Part shown: piece by piece, positions 6,617 to 31,400 of the stretch | How the letters are laid out: each line of letters begins with the position of its first letter | Position numbering within the stretch: position 1 is the first letter of the stretch | Program-made: the position numbers and the translations under genes | DNA from: Chlorella sorokiniana | Taxonomy: Eukaryota; Chlorophyta; Trebouxiophyceae; Chlorellales; Chlorellaceae | Assembly: GCA_025917655.1 (NCBI GenBank) | Contig: CP084617.1 | Coordinates: 372,001-436,000, forward strand | Reading direction: 5' to 3' | DNA: 64,000 bases | Notes under the pieces: model-generated | Databases searched by the model: none | What the model was told of the DNA's origin: nothing | What the model saw: only the letters and a program-made list of their open reading frames with translations

Positions 6617-8277
6617 ATGGATCAGGCCGCGGTTCTGGCAAAGCTTGCGGAGCTCAATATCCAGCACGAGAAACATGCTCACCCGGCGGTGATGACTTGC
6701 GAGGCGCAGGTGACTGCTGTTGGTGCAAATGCAGTGTCCACACAAGCGCCGTAAGACCGCCATGCGCTGGGCTCACAAGCTCGCCTTCTTGTCGACGTGC
6801 CGCAGGCAGCGGCTCTGGCCAATGTGGACGGCGTAGTGACGAAGAACCTGTTCCTAAAGGTGTAAATCTGGAGGCTTCGAGCCTGGCCTGCTCTTGCCAG
6901 CTGCGTGCCCCCACCCGCCACCCCTACCGCCACGGCTCCGTTGGCAGTGGTCCTTGTCTGATAAGCTGCGCCTCGCATGCAGGACAAGAGGGATCGGCTC
7001 TTCATAATCACGGCTGCAGCAGACACCAAAGTAGACCTCAAGGGTGAGCGGCTGACACGGTTTAAAGTGCATGCCGTCCACGCCCAGCTGACCGGCACAA
7101 AGCAGTCCATCATCTTCCTCCTCCCTCGCAGTGCTCTCAGCGCGGCTGGGCACTGGCAAGGGCGGCCTACGAATGGCGCCAGACGAACTGATATCTGCGG
7201 TGCTGCAGGTGGGCAGCACCACAAAGGAAGCTTGGGTTTCGCTCCTTTTGCCTTGCAATCCAGGTTCCCCAGCAATCCCCACCCTCCGGCTTTCCATCAA
7301 TCCCTTGCTCCGGCTTTCCATCAGGTGCCGCTGGGCAGCGTGACCCCGCTGGCAGTCGCGCAGCCCAGCGCTGCTGGCGTGGCGCTGCTGCTGGATGCCA
7401 AGCTGCGGGGGCGCCCGCATCTTTGTGCACCCGCTGGACAACACCGCCACCGTGGTGCTGTCGCCAGAGGGGCTGGAAGCGTTCGTCAGGTGTGGAACCG
7501 CGCAGGTCCTCCTGCCTGCTGCTGTCCCAAGAGTATGCTTTCTGCTATGCTTGCACAGCCCAGCTGCTGGCTGGCTCCTGTCCACCAAACCGATCGTCGA
7601 CCATTTGCGTTTGTTGCTTGTCCCGGCGTGCTGCCTGCCGCAGGTCTACAGGGCGGGAACCTGCTTGGGTGGATCTTGAGGCGGACCCTGTGATTGACAG
7701 GGACAACCCGCCAGACCTGAAGCAGTATGCGGATGCAGCCATTCCCCTGGAACTGGACGACAGCACGGGAGGGGCGGCAGCAGCGCCAGCAGCCAAGCCT
7801 GCAGCCCAGGCGGCGGCAGCGGCCACCGGCGGCAAGAAGGCAGCGGCGGCTGAAAAGAAGGCGGCGGCGGCGGCAGCGCCAGCTGGGCCGCGTGCGGACG
7901 ATGTGCTGCGGATCACAGATGAGCTTGTGGCCAAGGTGGGCGAGGCCAGCTTGAAGCAGGAGTGCCCCAGCTCCCGTGAAGCTTGCATGCATCAAGCTTT
8001 GCCAGCAAGCCTCGCATGTTTGTCACCTGTCGCTGCCCGCCTGGGCACCCGCACTGCTTCACACTTCTGTTTGGTGTTCCCCCACCCCACGCCCCTTGTT
8101 CAGGTGGCCAGCACGCTGCTGGGCGATGGTGCGGCGAGCGTGGATTCCGATGTGCTGCGGCGCCTCAAGGCGGATGTCGAGATGCAGCTGAACGCGCTGC
8201 GCAATGCAGCCTACGCCGGCGGCTTTGCAGCGGCGAAGGGCGCCATTGCCGGCGCCATCAATGGCGTGTTTGCGTGA
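6617..8277 (+). CDS. YbaK/ProX-type prolyl-tRNA deacylase
   Basis: This is a trans-editing enzyme of the YbaK/PrdX family, which hydrolyses mischarged prolyl-tRNA. Seven exons are supported: 6617-6709, 6806-6859, 6983-7043, 7132-7208, 7325-7489, 7644-7935 and 8104-8277. They spell the plant homologue's pattern: an N-terminal KLAELNIQHEKHAHPAV, then TKNLFLKDK, DTKVDLK, RLGTGKGGLRMAPDEL, QVPLGSVTPLAV and VDLEADP. An Ala/Lys-rich linker near residues 200-230 leads to a C-terminal helical tail ending GAINGVFA. One frame break is visible: a G5 run at 7407-7411 between LLLDAKLRG and ARIFVHPLDN has one base too many. The last intron (7936-8103) is open in frame, so retention would not truncate the protein. 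Confidence 0.87.
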
Positions 8278-8364
8278 CGGGCCAAATGCGCACTCACTCG
8301 TGTTTGCATGGACGCCAATGAAAGAATGACCCCCACAGCTGGCGCACAAGCAGGCCTTGACATG

Positions 8365-9332
8365 CTACAAGTGCTGCATCTGAGGTGTGGGCAGCAGAGC
8401 GTCCTGTTGCTCGGCCATACAGCCGCCCCGCCGGAAGAAGGCGGCAATGGCGGCAGCAGCTTGGCTGCCTATGTCTGTGTGAGCAGCGATCTCATGACCC
8501 TGCCGCTGTCTGCACGGCAGGTATGGGGGCAATGCGTGAGAATTGAGGTGGGTGCTGAGCAGACAGGGCTGCAGTCTTGTCAGCAGGCGCACCTGATGTG
8601 CTGGAGGGAGCCCAGCATGCGCAGCATGTTCGCATGGTGCACGGCGTCGCCATCAGCGGGCAAGGGCAGGCCCAGCAGGGCGTGGTTGACAGCCTCGGAT
8701 GTGGCTGCCACCTGAAGTTGCTGCAAAGGGACACTCAGGGACAGGACAGTCCATGAGCAGGGACTCCGCTGATGCACAAACCAGCCCGGAACACCCAGCA
8801 CCCAGCACCCAGCACCTGCTTGCGCCACCTGGCTTCCTCGGCCTCCGCCGGTAGCATAGCCGTAGCGAGTGCCAGCGCCCTGTCTGTGAAGCTCGCCCCC
8901 ACTGGCAGCAAGACATAGCATGGGCAGTCATCATTGTCCAAGCTGCAACGCATCACTGGTCTGTCGGTTGATTGAATGTCGTCACCGCTTTGCAGTGCCA
9001 GGAAGCAGGCAAAGCTGGATTGCACACCTGGAGGCCGCTGTGAGAACCTCTGAGTTGCTCTGCAGGTCATTTGGCACCAGCACATAGGACCTCTTGAAAG
9101 AGCCTGCGAGCCGAGCTGCACGGACAGACATGCTGTCGCCGTCGCCGCTGCGCCGCCAGAGCAGGAAGGCCAGGGTGCTGCCTGCCTTGGACACCAGCAG
9201 GTCAGCTGTTGCTGAGCTGACCTTGCGCACTTTTAGCCCTGCTGCTTGTGCCAGCTGAAGGAGCTGGGCCTCGTCCACCACCCCAGACTCGCAGGCCTGC
9301 TGCAGGCAGATGCAGGTTGCCGCTGTGGCCAT
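8365..9332 (-). CDS. Putative SPO16/PTD-like (ERCC1/XPF-fold) meiotic protein
   Basis: This minus-strand gene ends at the stop at 8365, and ATG 9332 is the likely start (MATAATCICLQQA). Readable exon cores carry ADLLVSKAGSTLAFLLWRR, then SFKRSYVLVPNDLQ, FACFLALQSGDD, CYVLLPVGASFTDRALALA, and finally LRMLGSLQHI joined to RQGHEIAAHTDIGSQAAAAI. The alternation of strands and helices resembles the central domain of SPO16, an ERCC1-like partner of the XPF-like ZIP2/SHOC1. The end (G-L-x-I ... AAAAIAAFF) looks like a helix-hairpin-helix. I infer a SPO16/PTD homologue from this pattern and from its divergent neighbour HEI10. Sequence identity is weak, the junction near 9000-9050 is uncertain, and an unrelated helical protein remains possible. 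Confidence 0.45.
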
Positions 9333-9588
9333 AGCTGAGGCGAGAGGAGTGGCAATGCTGAGGAGGGAAGGGGCAGGGCGCTGCATGAGGGCAGCCTGGG
9401 ATCCGGCTGGAAATGGCGCACAAGTCTCGACCCCATGTTGTCGCGACTGCCTTTACCGTCGGCTTCTTGTACTCGGCTATCCCGTCTTGGGGCTCTCCAA
9501 ACTCGCAAAGCTTTGCTGGGAGGGGGACATCGCCGGTCAAACCAGCGACCCGCGCTGGGCGGACAGGTCGCTGCAAAGTGGCGCGGGA
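9333..9588. promoter_or_regulatory. Putative bidirectional promoter of the SPO16-like/HEI10 pair
   Basis: 256 bp separate the two opposed start codons. Both genes must place their promoter and 5-prime leader here or inside each other. No TATA box is obvious. That the two genes share regulation is inference from the arrangement. Confidence 0.4.
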
Positions 9589-11557
9589 ATGCGCTCGGGC
9601 GGCGAGGATGAGGCTAACCTTCGATGCAATGGCTGCTGGAACGTGTGCGATCCGAAGGGTGAGTGTGGCGGCGCGCGGCGTGGGCAGCGGCGTGGGCAGG
9701 ACCCAACTCCCTCATGGCTTGCTGTCAATTGCAGATCACACTGTTGCCACCCAGTGCGGTCACCTCTACTGCTTGAACTGTTGCCAGACCATTATAGAGA
9801 GCGATGACCCAACATGCCCAATCTGCACCCAGGTGCGGCGGCCGCCTGCTGCGGTGTGCTGCCGCTCACCCATACACTTGCCTCGCACTTACTTGCACAC
9901 GTTACGTCATGTTTGCGCGTGCAGCTCATCCAGAAAAGCAATATCAAGGCGGTGCACGTGCTGGGCAGCAGCTCCGACCTGCAGCTGGTGCTGGCAGGTC
10001 AAGCGCCACGTGTGGCGCTGGAGGTGGCACACTCGGCCATTCACTTTTGTGAGTGAGGTTGCTGTTCGTGTCATTCAGCTGTGTTGTCAACAGCTCCTAC
10101 TACGACAACAGCCTTTTGATGCCCGACACCTGGGGCGCTGACGGTTTTCACTTTCTGCTCATGCAGACATCAAGCAGCAGGCGCTGTACGCGCAGTATGC
10201 CCAAGCCCAGAGCGACCGCAAGATCGCCCGCACCCATGAACAGTGCAAGAAGAAGCTGCAGGAGGTGCACGCCGGCTACCTCAACGCAAAGCGCAAGTAC
10301 CAGGTGAGCAGCCATGTGTGGAGCAGAGGGGGCACCACTCGCCCGCGGCGCCGCTGTCGTGCTGTCCGGGCCACCAGCGGGTCGGCTGCAGGCTGTTGAA
10401 TGCCAGAGACCTGCTCTCCTTTCTCAGGAGGTGCTGGCCCAGAAGGCTGCACTGGAAGCTGGCAACAAGGAGCTGCAGGACAAGTACAACCAGAAGGCCA
10501 TGTGGGTGTGGCAGGGGATTACCCCACAGGTCTCAGCGTGCATAGCGGCCGAGATACACTTGCTGAATGCCCGGCACCCGCGGCGAGAATTGTCCCCTGA
10601 AGGTTTATGCCTCGGCATGCTGCAAGTTTATACAACATGCCCATTGCAGGCAGGACAAGAAGCTGAAGGAGGGCTTTGCCCTGCTTCAGCAGGAGAACGA
10701 GCAGCTGCGCCGTCAGACAGGCATGGGTGGCGGCCCTGCCAGCGGCATGGCTGCGGTCATGAGTGGTGGCGGGCTCCGTGCCAGCCGCGGGGCCATGCCG
10801 GGCATGGAAGAAGGCCTGCACATGCGCCCTGCCACAGTCATGGGGCACAGGTCGGCTTGGCGCGAGCTTGGTGCTGCGGATGCTGAGCAAGGATACAAGC
10901 CCCTCACAGCCTCACATGCAGAGCCAAGTGCCCGCCCACATTCAAGCTTTGTCCCTGTGCATGCCGCCCGTGCAGGGCGGTACCGCCAGACCCCTCGCCT
11001 GTGCCTTCCATCGGGCTCGGCGGCTTTGGGCCCGGCAGCTTCGTGTACGACACTCCCGATCCCATGCCTCCCGTCAGGGGGCAGCTCTTCACTGGCGGCC
11101 CTGGCAGTGCTGGCGGCCGCATCAGCGGCGCTCGCCACATGAGCGGCGGGCCGGGCGCAGGAAGGGCCAGCAACGGGCTGGGGGAGGCAGGGGCGGCCTG
11201 AGCACCCAGCTGCACATGGGAGGCGTGGGCCGCCAGTCGCAGCAGAACGACAAGCGCCAGTCCCTGGGGCTGGCCTTCCCAGGAGGTGAGGGGCTGGGTG
11301 GCAGACAGCTGCAACCTGTGCAACCAAGCGGAGCTAAAGCGCTCAGATGCTCACGCATCATTGCCTGTACCCAAACATGTGCAGGCAACCACAGCACTGG
11401 CACGCTGGGGACGATGTGATCTGGCGGTCGGCGCATGGACCTCTCTTTTGCAGAACGCCAACGACAACGGGTTAGAAGGGGCAGGATGGAGAAGCTATTC
11501 AAACGGACACACGCAGCAGAAGCTAGCAAGACAGAAACAGTGATAGGGATAGGATAG
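9589..11557 (+). CDS. HEI10: HEI10/CCNB1IP1-type RING protein (meiotic crossover factor)
   Basis: HEI10 is a SUMO/ubiquitin E3-like ZMM protein that marks designated crossover sites on meiotic chromosomes. The start MRSGGEDEANLRCNGCW is followed by a C3HC4-type RING: CNGCW, CGHLYCLNC and CPIC over about residues 11-50. Next come a short linker (VALEVAHSAIHFY) and a long coiled coil (QALYAQYAQAQSDRK through LQQENEQLRRQ). The tail is Gly/Ser-rich, as in the family. Exons: 9589-9658, 9735-9832, 9925-10048, 10167-10303, 10428-10501, from 10650, and on to about 11285. The 3-prime end is unsure. Read literally the frame stops at 11201. One extra G in the run before 11190 would extend it through QLHMGGVGRQSQQNDKRQ and a last exon (11454-11557). 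Confidence 0.84.
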
Positions 11558-11618: not shown

Positions 11619-13805
11619 TCATGACTGGCTCGCTTGTTCTTTATGTGACAATTCGTTCATCTCTAGGTCGCCGTCCGCTTCCGCTACCCTCGCGTAGCTG
11701 CCCCGCTCGCCCAGCCCCAGACGGGCCACCGCCAGCTGCGCCGCGCAGCACAGAACCCATCCTGCCAGCAGCACCGCGCAGGCAGCCAAGTACACGGCCT
11801 GTGCGCCGTGGTGCAGGTACACGTAGCCGCCGCACAGGGAGCCGAGGCCCACGCCCAGCCCAGTAGAGGCCCTGCAAGGCAGAGGCGGGGAGGGCAACGG
11901 GCATGGTGGCCCCGACTGGCAAGGCAGATGGGGCACCACACGGCAGGGCGACAGCAACGCTTTCCTCCCCAGCCCTCCTGCACTCTTGCCTGGAAAAGGC
12001 CCTGTGTGGTGGCCTCCAGCCCCGGCGGCGCCAGCTGGGCGCAGTAGGCGGAGCCGCCGCCCCAGGCGAGGGCAAAGGTGAAGCCGTGCAGCACCTCCAC
12101 TGGGAGCACCTGCGGGGGAGCGTTGAGGGGCGGCTAGACGCTGATACGCGCGGGAGGCGGTGCAGGTCAGGGCACGGTGTGCCAGGGGCGAAGATGCGGC
12201 TGGGGTGCGAGGCCTCCCTCGCTGTCCCGCCCGGCCCCACCAGCCTGCCCAGCAGCGGCGGCAGCGGCAGGCGCCCGCCGGGCCTCACCAGCCAGGGGAG
12301 GGCGCCGCTGCCAGCGCGGCGTAGCACGCCATGCGCAGCAGGAAGGCCGCCAGCACGAGGTGCAGGCAGGCGCGGATGCCGAGGCGCAGGAGGGCCGGCA
12401 GGGCGGCAAAGACGGCTGTCTCCGCGGCGCAGGTGACGGTGAGGGACAGGCCCATCAGCAGCTCCGAGCCGCCCAGCTCCTCCAGGAAGAGGAAGAGGTA
12501 CCCCTCGATGTTGCCCACCCCAAACCCCATCACCGTCGCCATGAAGAAAAAGATGGCGGCCTCCGGGTTGCGCAGCAGCTGGGCCACGCCGCGCCAGTAG
12601 TGCACCTGCGGCGGACCGCCGCCGTGCCGTGGCGGGCTGCTGGGGGCCTGGGGCTGGAAAGCGAGGGAGACCTGTCCGCAGCCTCAGCTGTCTGGGGCCG
12701 CCCAGCAGGCTTGTTGTTTGGCGGCGGGGAGGAGGGCCTGCGGGCCAGCAGAGCCTCCTGCTCCAACGCACTGTCGAACCGCCGCACCCGCTGGCCCTTG
12801 CCGCCGCCGCTGGACGGGCTGCGCGGGCTGTGGCTCGTGACCGCGGCTGCGGCTCCCAGCCTGCCGCCAGGTGCCTGCTGCGGCGCTGTGGGGTTGCCAG
12901 CGTGCTCAGCGCCGCCACCGTCGAGCGAGCGTGCGCCGCCTTGCTTGTCCAGCCTGGCGTGCAGCGGCCCAAAGGGCAGTCGCAGAGTGGGTGCCAGCGC
13001 TACGGCGGCCAGCGCGGCGTGCCCGCAAACGCCGCCCAGATGCCGCAGCGGCTGATGGCGCTGCCCGACACGGCGGCCATGATGCCCCAGCCCACGGCGC
13101 CCCACAGGCGCTGCCGCCCGTAGTTTCCCTGCTCCCCGCATGCCGCCATCACGGCTGCGGCGGGGGAAGGGGAACGGCGCTCAGCTTGGCAGCAGCTGGC
13201 CTTTGGCACCGCAGTGCTTCAGCTGGGGGAGCCAGCATGAGCGCCCAGGCTTGGCGCTGCCCAGCAGCGTGCACATACCGCCCAGCCAGCCTTGCACATG
13301 CCGCCCAGCTCACCAGCGTCAGCCAGGATCGTGACGGGCGCGGCAAAGAACTCAGTGGCCGCCACCGTGGCCAGCAGCGGCGCAAAGCCCAGCCGTCCCG
13401 CCGCCGCCAGCGACAGGCGGGCCAGCACCGAGGCGCAGAGCGTCAGGACCAGCACGGCGCGGTGGCGGCGCCACTTGTCGGCGGCGCCAGACCACAGCGA
13501 CCCTGCCGGCATCGACACAAACGGGCGCACGGCGCCCAGCAGCCCGATCCTCTGCTCGTCCAGGCCCAGCCGCCGGAAGAAGAGGTTGAGGAAGGGGAAG
13601 ATGCAGGCCAGCGCCGCAAAGTGGGCCGCGTACCAAAACTGCGGAGGAGATGCGTTGTGCGAGGCAGCGTGGGAGCGGATCACGGTGGGCCAGGGCACCA
13701 GGGGACGAAGACGCCACCTTCTGCTGTGGACTGCGGTGGAGACGGCAGCAGTGGCGGCTGCATGCAAACATGGCCACAGCCCAGCCATACCTTGGCGGCC
13801 CTCAT
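11619..13805 (-). CDS. MFS transporter, MFSD6/MFS_1-like
   Basis: This is a twelve-helix major facilitator of the MFS_1-like/MFSD6 group; the substrate is unknown. The first exon (13805-13791) encodes only MRAAK. The second (13638-13314) starts FWYAAHFAALACIFPFLNLF. The family signature YGRQRLWGAVGWG follows near 13130. A long Ser/Pro/Arg-rich loop (about 12990-12610) separates the two halves. The second half has GFGVGNIEGYLFLFLEELGG and VLHGFTFALAWGGGSAYCAQ, and ends with an acidic tail at 11619. The last intron (11989-11872) has a GC donor. Two frame breaks, at C runs 13022-13024 and 11854-11856, each look like one missing base. With them the protein matches the family, so I do not call it a pseudogene. 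Confidence 0.8.
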
Positions 13806-14124
13806 ATCTTTCGACGGCAATCAAAATCCCTCGCCCTAGCGGCTGTAGGGCTGTTTCAGACTGTGAAAACGCTGGTATTTCATTTCTTCATCCACATGTA
13901 CGTACATTTGCGTCGTAGCACGAATGCACGAGCGCAATTGACAGGCCAAATGTGCGAGGCGACTTCAGTTCAGCGAACAGCAGTACGCACTCCCTTTCGC
14001 GAGTACTGCCAGAGCCTGAACGGACGACAGGCTCTCCCACGTTCCGTCGACACAGCATTTGGCACAATGGGAATCTGCACCCAGCCTATAGTGCTGTGCT
14101 GAACTCTGGATCAGTCCTGCCGCC
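13806..14124. other. Divergent intergenic region
   Basis: 319 bp between the transporter start (-) and the BIN4 start (+). It is less GC-rich than the genes. It probably contains both promoters, but no motif stands out. Confidence 0.5.
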
Positions 14125-28449: not shown

Positions 28450-31400
28450 TCAGGGCAGCAGAGAAACAGAGTCGCTGGAGGTGACGGCAGCAGGGCCGGG
28501 CGATGGCGGCGGCGGGGGGCTGCTGCCAGCCCGCCTGACCAGGTAGCCAGAGGTCCAAGGCACCCCTGGGCCGCTGCCGTAAGCGGACAGGCTGGGGCGG
28601 CCGCCGCCGTCGGTGGGCTGCCGCTTGAGCGTGCACAGGCGTGCTGGGAACAGCTGCCCGGCGCCGTTGTCGCACCTGCGCGGAAGGGGAGGCAACTCGC
28701 TCATTCCAGCGCCGAGTGAGGTGCAGTCCAGCTGGGGGGAACGCGCGGTGGGCCGGCTGGCAGCAAGCCGTGTGCCAGCTGCTCGTGGCGGCATGCGCTG
28801 GGCCAGCCAGCCACGAAGCGGGAGGGTGCCGAGCAGCAGCGAAACAGTGCCTCACCCGCCGTCCTGCGGGCAGTAGACGAAGACGTTGCACTGCGGGCTG
28901 GCCTGGCACCGCCGGCAGCAGGCCCCCGCGCTGGCTTCTGTGCTGCTGGCCAGCACCGGCCCCTGCAGGTTGCTGTTGGGCAGCACCGTGCACTGCGCCT
29001 GCTGCTGCTGCGCGGCGCCGCCGCTGCTGGGTGCTGGGCTGGGGGCCGACGGTGATGGCGAGGGCGAGGGGGAGGGGGAGGGGGAGGGCGGCGGTGGTGA
29101 GGCGGGGGACGGAGGTGGCGATGGGGAGGGAGAGGGAGAGGGAGAGGGCGATGGGGACGGCGCAAGGGCTGCCCCCCGCCCCGCCACGGTGCCGGCTGTG
29201 AGGCCGGAGGCCCTGCGGGTCCAGCCGGAGGGTGCCTTGAGGAAGCAGCACCCTGGGCAGAGGTTTGCGTCCCCCACACCCTGCACAAGAAAGGGAACAG
29301 AAAGGGGGTTGTGTGGGTCGGGGCCCTTGCGGTCTGCCGAGGACGTGTGTCCATGCCTGCAGCGAGGCAGCCAGGGCCGTCTTTTAAAGCAGGCACGCAG
29401 CCGACAGGCAGCGCGCCACGTGGAGCAGCTCACCAGGCGCCGCAGTCAGAGCGCGCCGCGCACTTGGCGCAGCAGGCGGGCGGGGGAGGGCGTGCGGCGG
29501 GCGGGGGCCGTCGAGCTGGCGGTCGTCGGGCAGATCGCCGCCGTCCAGGTCGGTGCCTGGCAGGTAGGTGCAGCTGCCGGCTGCGGCAGCTGCAGCAGGG
29601 GAGGCACCAGAGTGTTTCAAACACGGCTACCGTCAGTCGCACACATATCATGCGTAGTTGTGCTTGATATTGTCAAGCAGGCAAAGATGCGAGTCGTAAG
29701 TACCTGAGGAGGGGGCTGCCGGTGACGGGGACGGGCTCGGCGGCGAGGGGGAAGGGGAGGGAGATGGAGAGGGGGAAAGGGAAGGAGATGGAGAGGGCAA
29801 GGGGGAAGGAGATGGAGAGGGCAAGGGGGAGGGGGACGGGGACGGGGAAGGAGAGGGGGAGGGAGAGGGCGAGGGGGATGGACTGGGGGTGGCGCAGGGG
29901 CAGGGCTGGGCGGCGTCGGGGCCCCGGCTGCTGCTGCTGGAGAGGCGGCGTTTGAGGCCTCTGCGCAGCGGCCGCACGTCAGGCGGCAGTATCCGCCCAG
30001 CACCATCCATGCTTGGTTGCACTTGCCCCACCCCTGCAGCCAGGCATGGAAAGAGTGGGCTTAGCAACAGCACCTCTTTTAAATCACTGGCGCCTGTCGA
30101 GGCCACACAGGCAGGTGGTATGTCGCAGCGGCGCCTCTAGCCCTGCTGCCAGGACAGTGCTGCACGTCCTGGCGAAGCGGCCGGGAGGTGCAACCACCAC
30201 GCCTGGCCGCCACCATCACCACCACCACCGCTGCCACACCACCGCCCACCTGCTGCTGGGCGCACGTGAAGCCGTCAGGGGTCGGCACATCGGAGCAGGC
30301 CTCCCCCTCCGCGCTCCGCACAGCCTCCACGCTGTCTTGCGCCGGGGCGTCAGGGCGCCGCCGCCGCCTCCTCCGAGATGGGCGGCAGCACAAAGGTGAC
30401 CGCCGTGATGGGCAGCGACGCTGCGGCGGCCCCGGCGGCGGGTGCCGGCGGTGAGGGCGGCCGGGAGGTGTGGGGGGAGGAGGAGGAGGAGGGGATGGTG
30501 AGGGCGGTGGTGGCGGTGGCGGCGGAGGGGGAGGAGGGGGAGGGGGAGGAGGGGATGGTGGGGGCGGTGGCGGCGGAGGGGGAGGAGGGGGAGGGGATGG
30601 TGAGGGCGGTGGTGGCGGTGGCGGCGGAGGGGGAGGAGGGGAGGGGGAGGAGGGGATGGTGGGGGCGGTGGCGGCGGAGGGGGAGGAGGGGGAGGGGATG
30701 GTGAGGGCGGTGGCGGCGGAGGGGGAGGAGGGGGAGGGGATGGTGAGGGCGGTGGTGGTGGTGGCGGCGGAGGGGGAGGAGGGGGAGGGGATGGTGAGGG
30801 CGGTGGCGGCGGAGGGGGAGGAGGGGGAGGAGGGGATGGTGGGGGCGGTGGCGGCGGAGGGGGAGGAGGGGGAGGGGATGGTGAGGGCGGTGGTGGTGGC
30901 GGCGGCGGAGGGGGAGGAGGGGGAGGAGGGGGAGAAATGGGAGAAGTTTGGGGAGGCGGAGATGGGGAAACAGGCGAGGGTGGCGGGGAGGCGGCAGGGG
31001 TGGCGCCAGGGGAGGGGCAGGTGGAGGTAGGGGGAGGGAGAGGGGGCGGTGGTGGCGGCGATGGAGATGGCGGCGGAGGCGAAGGCGGCGGGGGAGGGGG
31101 CGGGGGCGGAAGAGGCGGGGGCGGCCGAACTGGGGACGGCGGCGGTGGTGGCAGCGGTGGCGGTGGCGGTGGGGGTGGCGGCGGTGACGGAGACGGCGGC
31201 GGGGGTGGGGGTGGAGGGGATGGGGATGGGGGCGGTGGCGGCGGGGGTGGGGGTGTCGGCGGCGGTGGCGACGGTGGGGGTGGGGGCGGGGGTGGGGGTG
31301 GCAGGGCGGTGCAACGGGAGGGGCAGCCGGGGCTTGGGAGGGCAAAGGTGCGAGGGCTGCCGCTGCTGGAGCCTCTGGCACCGGTGCAGCCGCAGCCGCC

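Follow-up and report, generated by a model that had tools for sequence, protein, structure and literature searches.

A PTD/SPO16-like gene predicted head to head with HEI10 in Chlorella sorokiniana

A 64,000-bp stretch of the Chlorella sorokiniana genome (the window; positions 372001–436000 of contig C12, in an assembly of 38.8 Mb in 15 contigs) contains two genes that diverge from one short intergenic region. A start codon at 9332 opens a minus-strand gene for a PTD/SPO16-like protein, and one at 9589 opens HEI10 on the plus strand, with 256 bp between the two ATGs (9333–9588). A first-pass annotation, made from the sequence alone, had described a divergent pair with this spacing, and both genes were found where it placed them. 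From profile comparisons and modelled structures, the product of 8365–9332 is very probably the orthologue in Chlorellaceae of PARTING DANCERS (PTD), which corresponds in plants to SPO16. The pair consists of conserved crossover genes – new members of known families, in a gene order that merits testing.

In the published work, Zip2:Spo16 is an XPF-ERCC1-like heterodimer that lacks nuclease activity and binds structured DNA; the Spo16 of Arabidopsis is PTD, and HEI10 regulates crossover number (PMC10903461, PMC3405992).

Structure of the two genes

The coding sequence of the PTD/SPO16-like gene runs on the minus strand from the ATG at 9332 to a TAG ending at 8365, with four exons encoding 234 amino acids (Table 1). 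The three introns are all GT-AG, of 85, 95 and 83 nt. Several in-frame GT-AG options exist for intron 1. The 85-nt option was picked for its strong-looking pair of sites and its agreement with homologues, and shorter options (13, 40, 67 and 70 nt) were set aside. A protein of Chlorella vulgaris (P0001), the best match with a species name, aligns with all 234 residues, at 68% identity and with one gap opening. The four-exon model is therefore colinear with a homologue over its full length and not a chance construct, and an origin of the gene in chance open frames was ruled out. Exon 1 has a single match in the genome, which is itself. The sequence phrases quoted in the first-pass annotation are present in the spliced product.

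HEI10 spans 9589–11419 on the plus strand, with seven exons from 9589 followed by a last exon at 11385–11419. The feature had been drawn to 11557; HEI10 is present within it, but coding ends at 11419, and 11420–11557 is noncoding in the present model. The RING was detected by Pfam zf-RING_5 (residues 12–55, E 1.6e-5, slightly short of the curated cut-off). Residues 11–189 match Arabidopsis HEI10 (AT1G53490) by BLASTP with an E value of 2e-32 (31% identity, 186 columns), and the coiled coil was deduced from that alignment. RING, helical segment and coiled coil occur in the same order in the two proteins, and their C-termini differ. The plus-strand gene is clearly HEI10, as had been proposed from a RING and then a coiled coil in the order of the family. 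Homologues with species names come from C. vulgaris, C. variabilis, two Micractinium, Trebouxia and Parachlorella, with identities of 45–72% (72% in C. vulgaris). Among the homologues compared, the tail NDKRQSLGLAFPG is identical in C. vulgaris and has one change in C. variabilis.

Table 1. Positions of the exons of the gene pair and of the region between them, in window coordinates
Feature	Position	Strand	Content and evidence
PTD/SPO16-like exon 1	9028..9332	-	ATG at 9332; predicted first part of XPF/ERCC1-like domain; splice model, homologues
PTD/SPO16-like exon 2	8816..8942	-	predicted end of nuclease-like domain, linker; full-length P0001 alignment
PTD/SPO16-like exon 3	8593..8720	-	predicted start of tandem helix-hairpin-helix (HhH); Pfam HHH_2, residues 177–213
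PTD/SPO16-like exon 4	8365..8509	-	predicted second HhH, C-terminus; TAG 8365–8367; BLASTP to Arabidopsis PTD
Inter-ATG region	9333..9588	.	256 bp, 63.7% G+C; candidate shared promoter
HEI10 exon 1	9589..9658	+	RING start; splice model
HEI10 exon 2	9735..9832	+	remainder of RING; Pfam zf-RING_5
HEI10 exon 3	9925..10048	+	splice model
HEI10 exon 4	10167..10303	+	coiled-coil region; BLASTP to Arabidopsis HEI10
HEI10 exon 5	10428..10501	+	coiled-coil region; splice model
HEI10 exon 6	10650..10850	+	splice model
HEI10 exon 7	10976..11285	+	conserved tail switches frame at 11162–11198; C. vulgaris P0013 by tblastn
HEI10 last exon	11385..11419	+	conserved C-terminus; TGA 11417–11419

The minus-strand product and Arabidopsis PTD

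A homologue search with the PTD/SPO16-like protein returned 10 proteins at E ≤ 1 among 7998 scored candidates. Four of these have a species name, and all four are from Chlorella or Micractinium. PTD-like proteins compared with the window protein are 40–69% identical to it. Their source labels are hypothetical or, for the C. sorokiniana protein P0003, hydantoinase subunit beta; no hydantoinase family is listed in the Pfam scan of P0003. The window protein and five homologues, six sequences in all, went into a family profile. P0007–P0010, which are partial or read through introns, were left out, and the truncated P0004 was left out of the profile; two other comparisons took six homologues. The Arabidopsis PTD sequence (AT1G12790) is that tabulated in PMC9957857.

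The first-pass annotation had likened the product to SPO16 and PTD, and the profile search bears this out. Arabidopsis PTD scored 35.0 bits, along both domains and over 183 profile positions, compared with −0.4 bits for the genome's own ERCC1 (a sequence joined by eye). Shuffled controls reached at most 5.1 bits in a set of 1000 and 8.5 bits in a further 500. An hhalign comparison of the family with Arabidopsis PTD covered 173 columns (E 1.6e-5, probability 79), and BLASTP matched Arabidopsis PTD in the HhH region encoded by exon 4. The proteins are similar in size, 250 amino acids in Arabidopsis and 234 in the window. Arabidopsis PTD also has an inactive XPF/ERCC1-like domain and a C-terminal tandem HhH, shares the segment H-AN-L..GS..I....I.A.TDl.s..A....FF, and is ca. 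21% identical to P0001 in the multiple alignment.

No Pfam family reached the cut-off in the window protein. The sole sensible match below it was HHH_2 (residues 177–213, E 6e-4), which is listed at E ≤ 10 in half of the family members (3 of 6), and Arabidopsis PTD likewise gave HhH families only. The XPF-type nuclease motif is GDXnERKX3D, and no [E/D/Q]RK was found in any of the six sequences checked. PTD itself is described as having no endonuclease motif (PMC9957857). The PTD-like protein is best read as an XPF/ERCC1-like domain that is catalytically dead, with a tandem HhH after it. A profile search for more distant relatives matched eight proteins and added just two, P0011 and P0012, to the earlier ones, and the 74 pattern matches in viral contigs included no relative.

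Adjacency in related algae

The adjacency of the two genes is kept between species. In each of the three named genomes in which both were found, the genes have consecutive locus tags and lie on contigs of equal size: C. vulgaris (D9Q98_007331/007332, contig of 3409888), Micractinium tetrahymenae (ABPG75_002499/002498, contig of 4181703) and Micractinium sp. CCAP 211/92 (ABPG77_004148/004149, contig of 452859). For an environmental pair, P0012 and P0023, the same longest contig is reported (10190). The count is one of adjacency, whatever the orientation, and was read from locus tags and contigs. Of 12 HEI10 homologues, it rests on P0013, P0014, P0016 and P0023; P0017, P0020, P0021, P0022 and P0024, which lack a species name, are outside it, and for P0015, P0018 and P0019, which carry one, there is no adjoining PTD match. 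Matches to a single gene came from C. sorokiniana (PTD only) and from C. variabilis, Trebouxia and Parachlorella (HEI10 only). Synteny of the pair, which had been suggested for a check across Trebouxiophyceae, was seen in all three informative named genomes, which lie within Chlorella and Micractinium only.

The explanation toward which we lean is that the two genes adjoin because the genome is compact and close relatives ordinarily share gene order, without shared regulation. The other gaps at the pair are similarly short – 87 bp (8278–8364) between the stop codon of the PTD-like gene and that of a tRNA-editing gene, and roughly 200 bp between the end of HEI10 at 11419 and a transporter gene of the major facilitator superfamily (MFS), the end of which is approximate. 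Confirmed named cases are confined to the two genera, and in Arabidopsis AT1G12790 and AT1G53490 are distant by locus number (PMC9957857). Two considerations point the other way. Among nine ZMM-type genes in a genome which we take to hold ca. 10,000 genes, ca. 0.007 adjacent pairs would be expected by chance, an estimate made after the fact. In a study of 64 species, a tendency towards linked functions is reported for conserved divergent gene pairs of animals and fungi (PMC2871058).

The 256 bp, which the first-pass annotation supposed to serve both genes as one promoter, are a candidate shared promoter. With a compact genome and flanking gaps of similar length, joint regulation is possible and no more. 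A stronger proposal, which we consider less likely than not, is that the 256 bp act in meiosis as a genuine promoter in both directions, linking the dosage of PTD (junction binding) with that of HEI10 (crossover choice), and are under selection across Chlorellaceae within a working, hidden sexual cycle. A bacterial-type promoter scan, of a kind not designed for algae, found none. The first-pass annotation had also called the arrangement unfamiliar from plants or animals. Narrow full-text literature searches, with most subscription journals outside their coverage, found no described case, which is weak evidence; the available text of PMC9957857 makes no mention of a PTD/HEI10 gene pair.

Fold comparisons and other XPF-family proteins

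Structural models of two homologues of the window protein, P0001 and P0005, were each used in a fold search, and XPF superfamily members filled all 34 top rows in one case and 34 of the 35 in the other. The XPF/ERCC1-like domain suspected from the sequence was thus found in the homologue models, and the outcome favoured the original suggestion over the possibility, raised with it, that the minus-strand exons belong to an unrelated conserved family. Yeast Zip2:Spo16 (PDB 6BZF/6BZG) is a structural match with only 7–8% identity; residue numbering in the match, from 499 upwards, suggests that the chain is Zip2 and not Spo16.

Several results count against assigning the protein to PTD in particular. 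An XPF/ERCC1-type nuclease-like domain is common to the whole superfamily, and fold matches were alike for PTD, FAAP24, EME1 and ERCC1, with FAAP24 and Zip2:Spo16 tied by structure alone in the homologue models. The C-terminal HhH of those models has low confidence. Searches of PDB sequences with the window protein and with the family profile gave 0 matches, and Arabidopsis PTD alone as a query found no match in the genome. In single-sequence phmmer with Arabidopsis PTD, the genome's ERCC1 scored 18.2 bits, within the 9.1–23.6 of the algal proteins. One-to-one comparison therefore fails to split PTD from ERCC1, and the profile alone does so.

The protein might be a different inactive XPF-family partner, acting in DNA repair and not in meiosis; examples would be FAAP24, which pairs with FANCM, or a paralogue resembling EME1 or ERCC1. 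We consider this improbable, given the profile match to Arabidopsis PTD on both domains and the much lower score of ERCC1, in a sequence comparison that covered PTD and ERCC1. The genome also has a separate, true ERCC1 gene (C4:2371914–2372385, Rad10 domain E 1.6e-32). This ERCC1 shares with the window protein the order of nuclease-like domain and HhH, but its Rad10 domain is clear while the window protein shows none. Neither Rad10 nor ERCC4 nor any other nuclease-like Pfam family was found in the PTD-like protein at E ≤ 10, although HMMER filters drop most matches above ca. 0.1, and BLASTP of the window protein against the genome's ERCC1 gave no match. That the PTD-like protein is ERCC1 itself was ruled out by the separate gene and the lack of a Rad10 domain.

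Meiotic gene content of the genome

The genome was searched with Arabidopsis proteins for a set of meiosis genes. Colinear pieces were found of MSH4 (five, on C4), MER3 (five, on C3) and MSH5 (four, on C10). There are two DMC1/RAD51-type loci, on C2 and C1, and SPO11-type pieces on C4 and C3. A candidate for SHOC1 lies at C5:924636–924959, and the frames adjoining it look SHOC1-like by eye; Pfam PF17825 (SHOC1) had no match in the genome, in a search whose control was also silent. SHOC1, the expected partner of PTD, may well be encoded in the genome. With the pieces of MSH4, MER3, MSH5 and the SHOC1 candidate, the pathway in which PTD and HEI10 would act appears to be largely encoded, on other contigs. 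A helicase-like piece 1.3 kb ahead of the window start (C12:370564–370695, minus strand) is 41% identical to residues 342–385 of Arabidopsis MER3, but probably belongs to another helicase because a better MER3 locus is on C3.

The first-pass annotation had taken the pair as evidence for functional meiosis. That claim stands on weaker ground – core meiosis genes had already been reported in trebouxiophytes (Fucikova 2015, as cited in PMC12636532), and genes alone do not prove meiosis. Other results count against the favoured reading of the pair. One piece of MSH5 and one SPO11-type piece on C4 run over a TGA, in each case perhaps an intron. The SHOC1 candidate is weak genome-wide (E 0.015; 2e-7 within its 3.3-kb locus), and the one match to Arabidopsis ZIP4 is weak, unconvincing and contains an in-frame stop (E 7.8e-4). 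A Pfam family search of the genome for HOP2, made with no positive control, found no match. The conserved tail of HEI10 is split over two reading frames at 11162–11198, in a G-rich stretch. There is no GT dinucleotide in 11121–11210, so no canonical intron begins there. The frame change may be an assembly slip of one base in the G-rich run or may be genuine.

That the pair are relics of a meiotic set decaying in an asexual lineage, as the split HEI10 tail and the unconvincing ZIP4 and HOP2 results might suggest, is unlikely, since HEI10 keeps its RING and coiled coil and the PTD-like gene its entire frame, all intact and conserved at identities that indicate selection on both proteins, exons of MSH4, MSH5 and MER3 are present, misassembly could account for a single base in a G-rich run, and the HOP2 search had no control.

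Possible function of the gene pair

An ERCC1-like, SPO16/PTD-type protein beside HEI10, as first proposed, is supported by the profile, fold and gene-content tests. For its function, SHOC1 binding, junction binding, a role in crossovers and any joint regulation with HEI10 are inferences. Most likely the PTD-like protein would combine into a heterodimer with its XPF/ZIP2-like partner SHOC1, for which there is a candidate gene on another contig. The PTD:SHOC1 dimer would bind branched recombination intermediates and stabilise them, so that they could mature as class I crossovers, and HEI10, a RING/coiled-coil ligase, would help choose which intermediates become crossovers. A plausible reason why the genes adjoin in Chlorella and Micractinium is that the short region between them would allow both to be activated at once when a rare meiotic phase occurs.

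A 2023 survey found SHOC1 in all plant lineages studied and PTD absent from most chlorophytes, either lost or too diverged; its main text does not name Chlorella (PMC9957857). The Chlorellaceae PTD-like proteins argue for the second of these within Chlorellaceae, and the family profile offers a means to find further PTD-like proteins. The linkage of PTD and HEI10 also provides one short DNA region in which a meiotic switch might be sought, in algae where sex is almost never seen.

Neighbouring genes and other features of the window

The pair lies between two other genes. At 6617–8277 the plus strand encodes an aminoacyl-tRNA editing domain (PF04073, E 3.8e-27), in a gene whose exons were joined by eye. 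On the minus strand at ca. 11619–13887, convergent with HEI10, is an MFS_1_like transporter, with PF12832 in the open frames 12285–12683 and 13219–13887. A tRNA scan found none. A block at 30–32 kb has 76% G+C and a GC skew of 0.40, and 30479–30946 is a G-rich minisatellite with units of 45–87 bp and 73–83% matches between copies. A second tandem array, at 594–936, has 3.5 copies of a G-rich unit of 97 bp.
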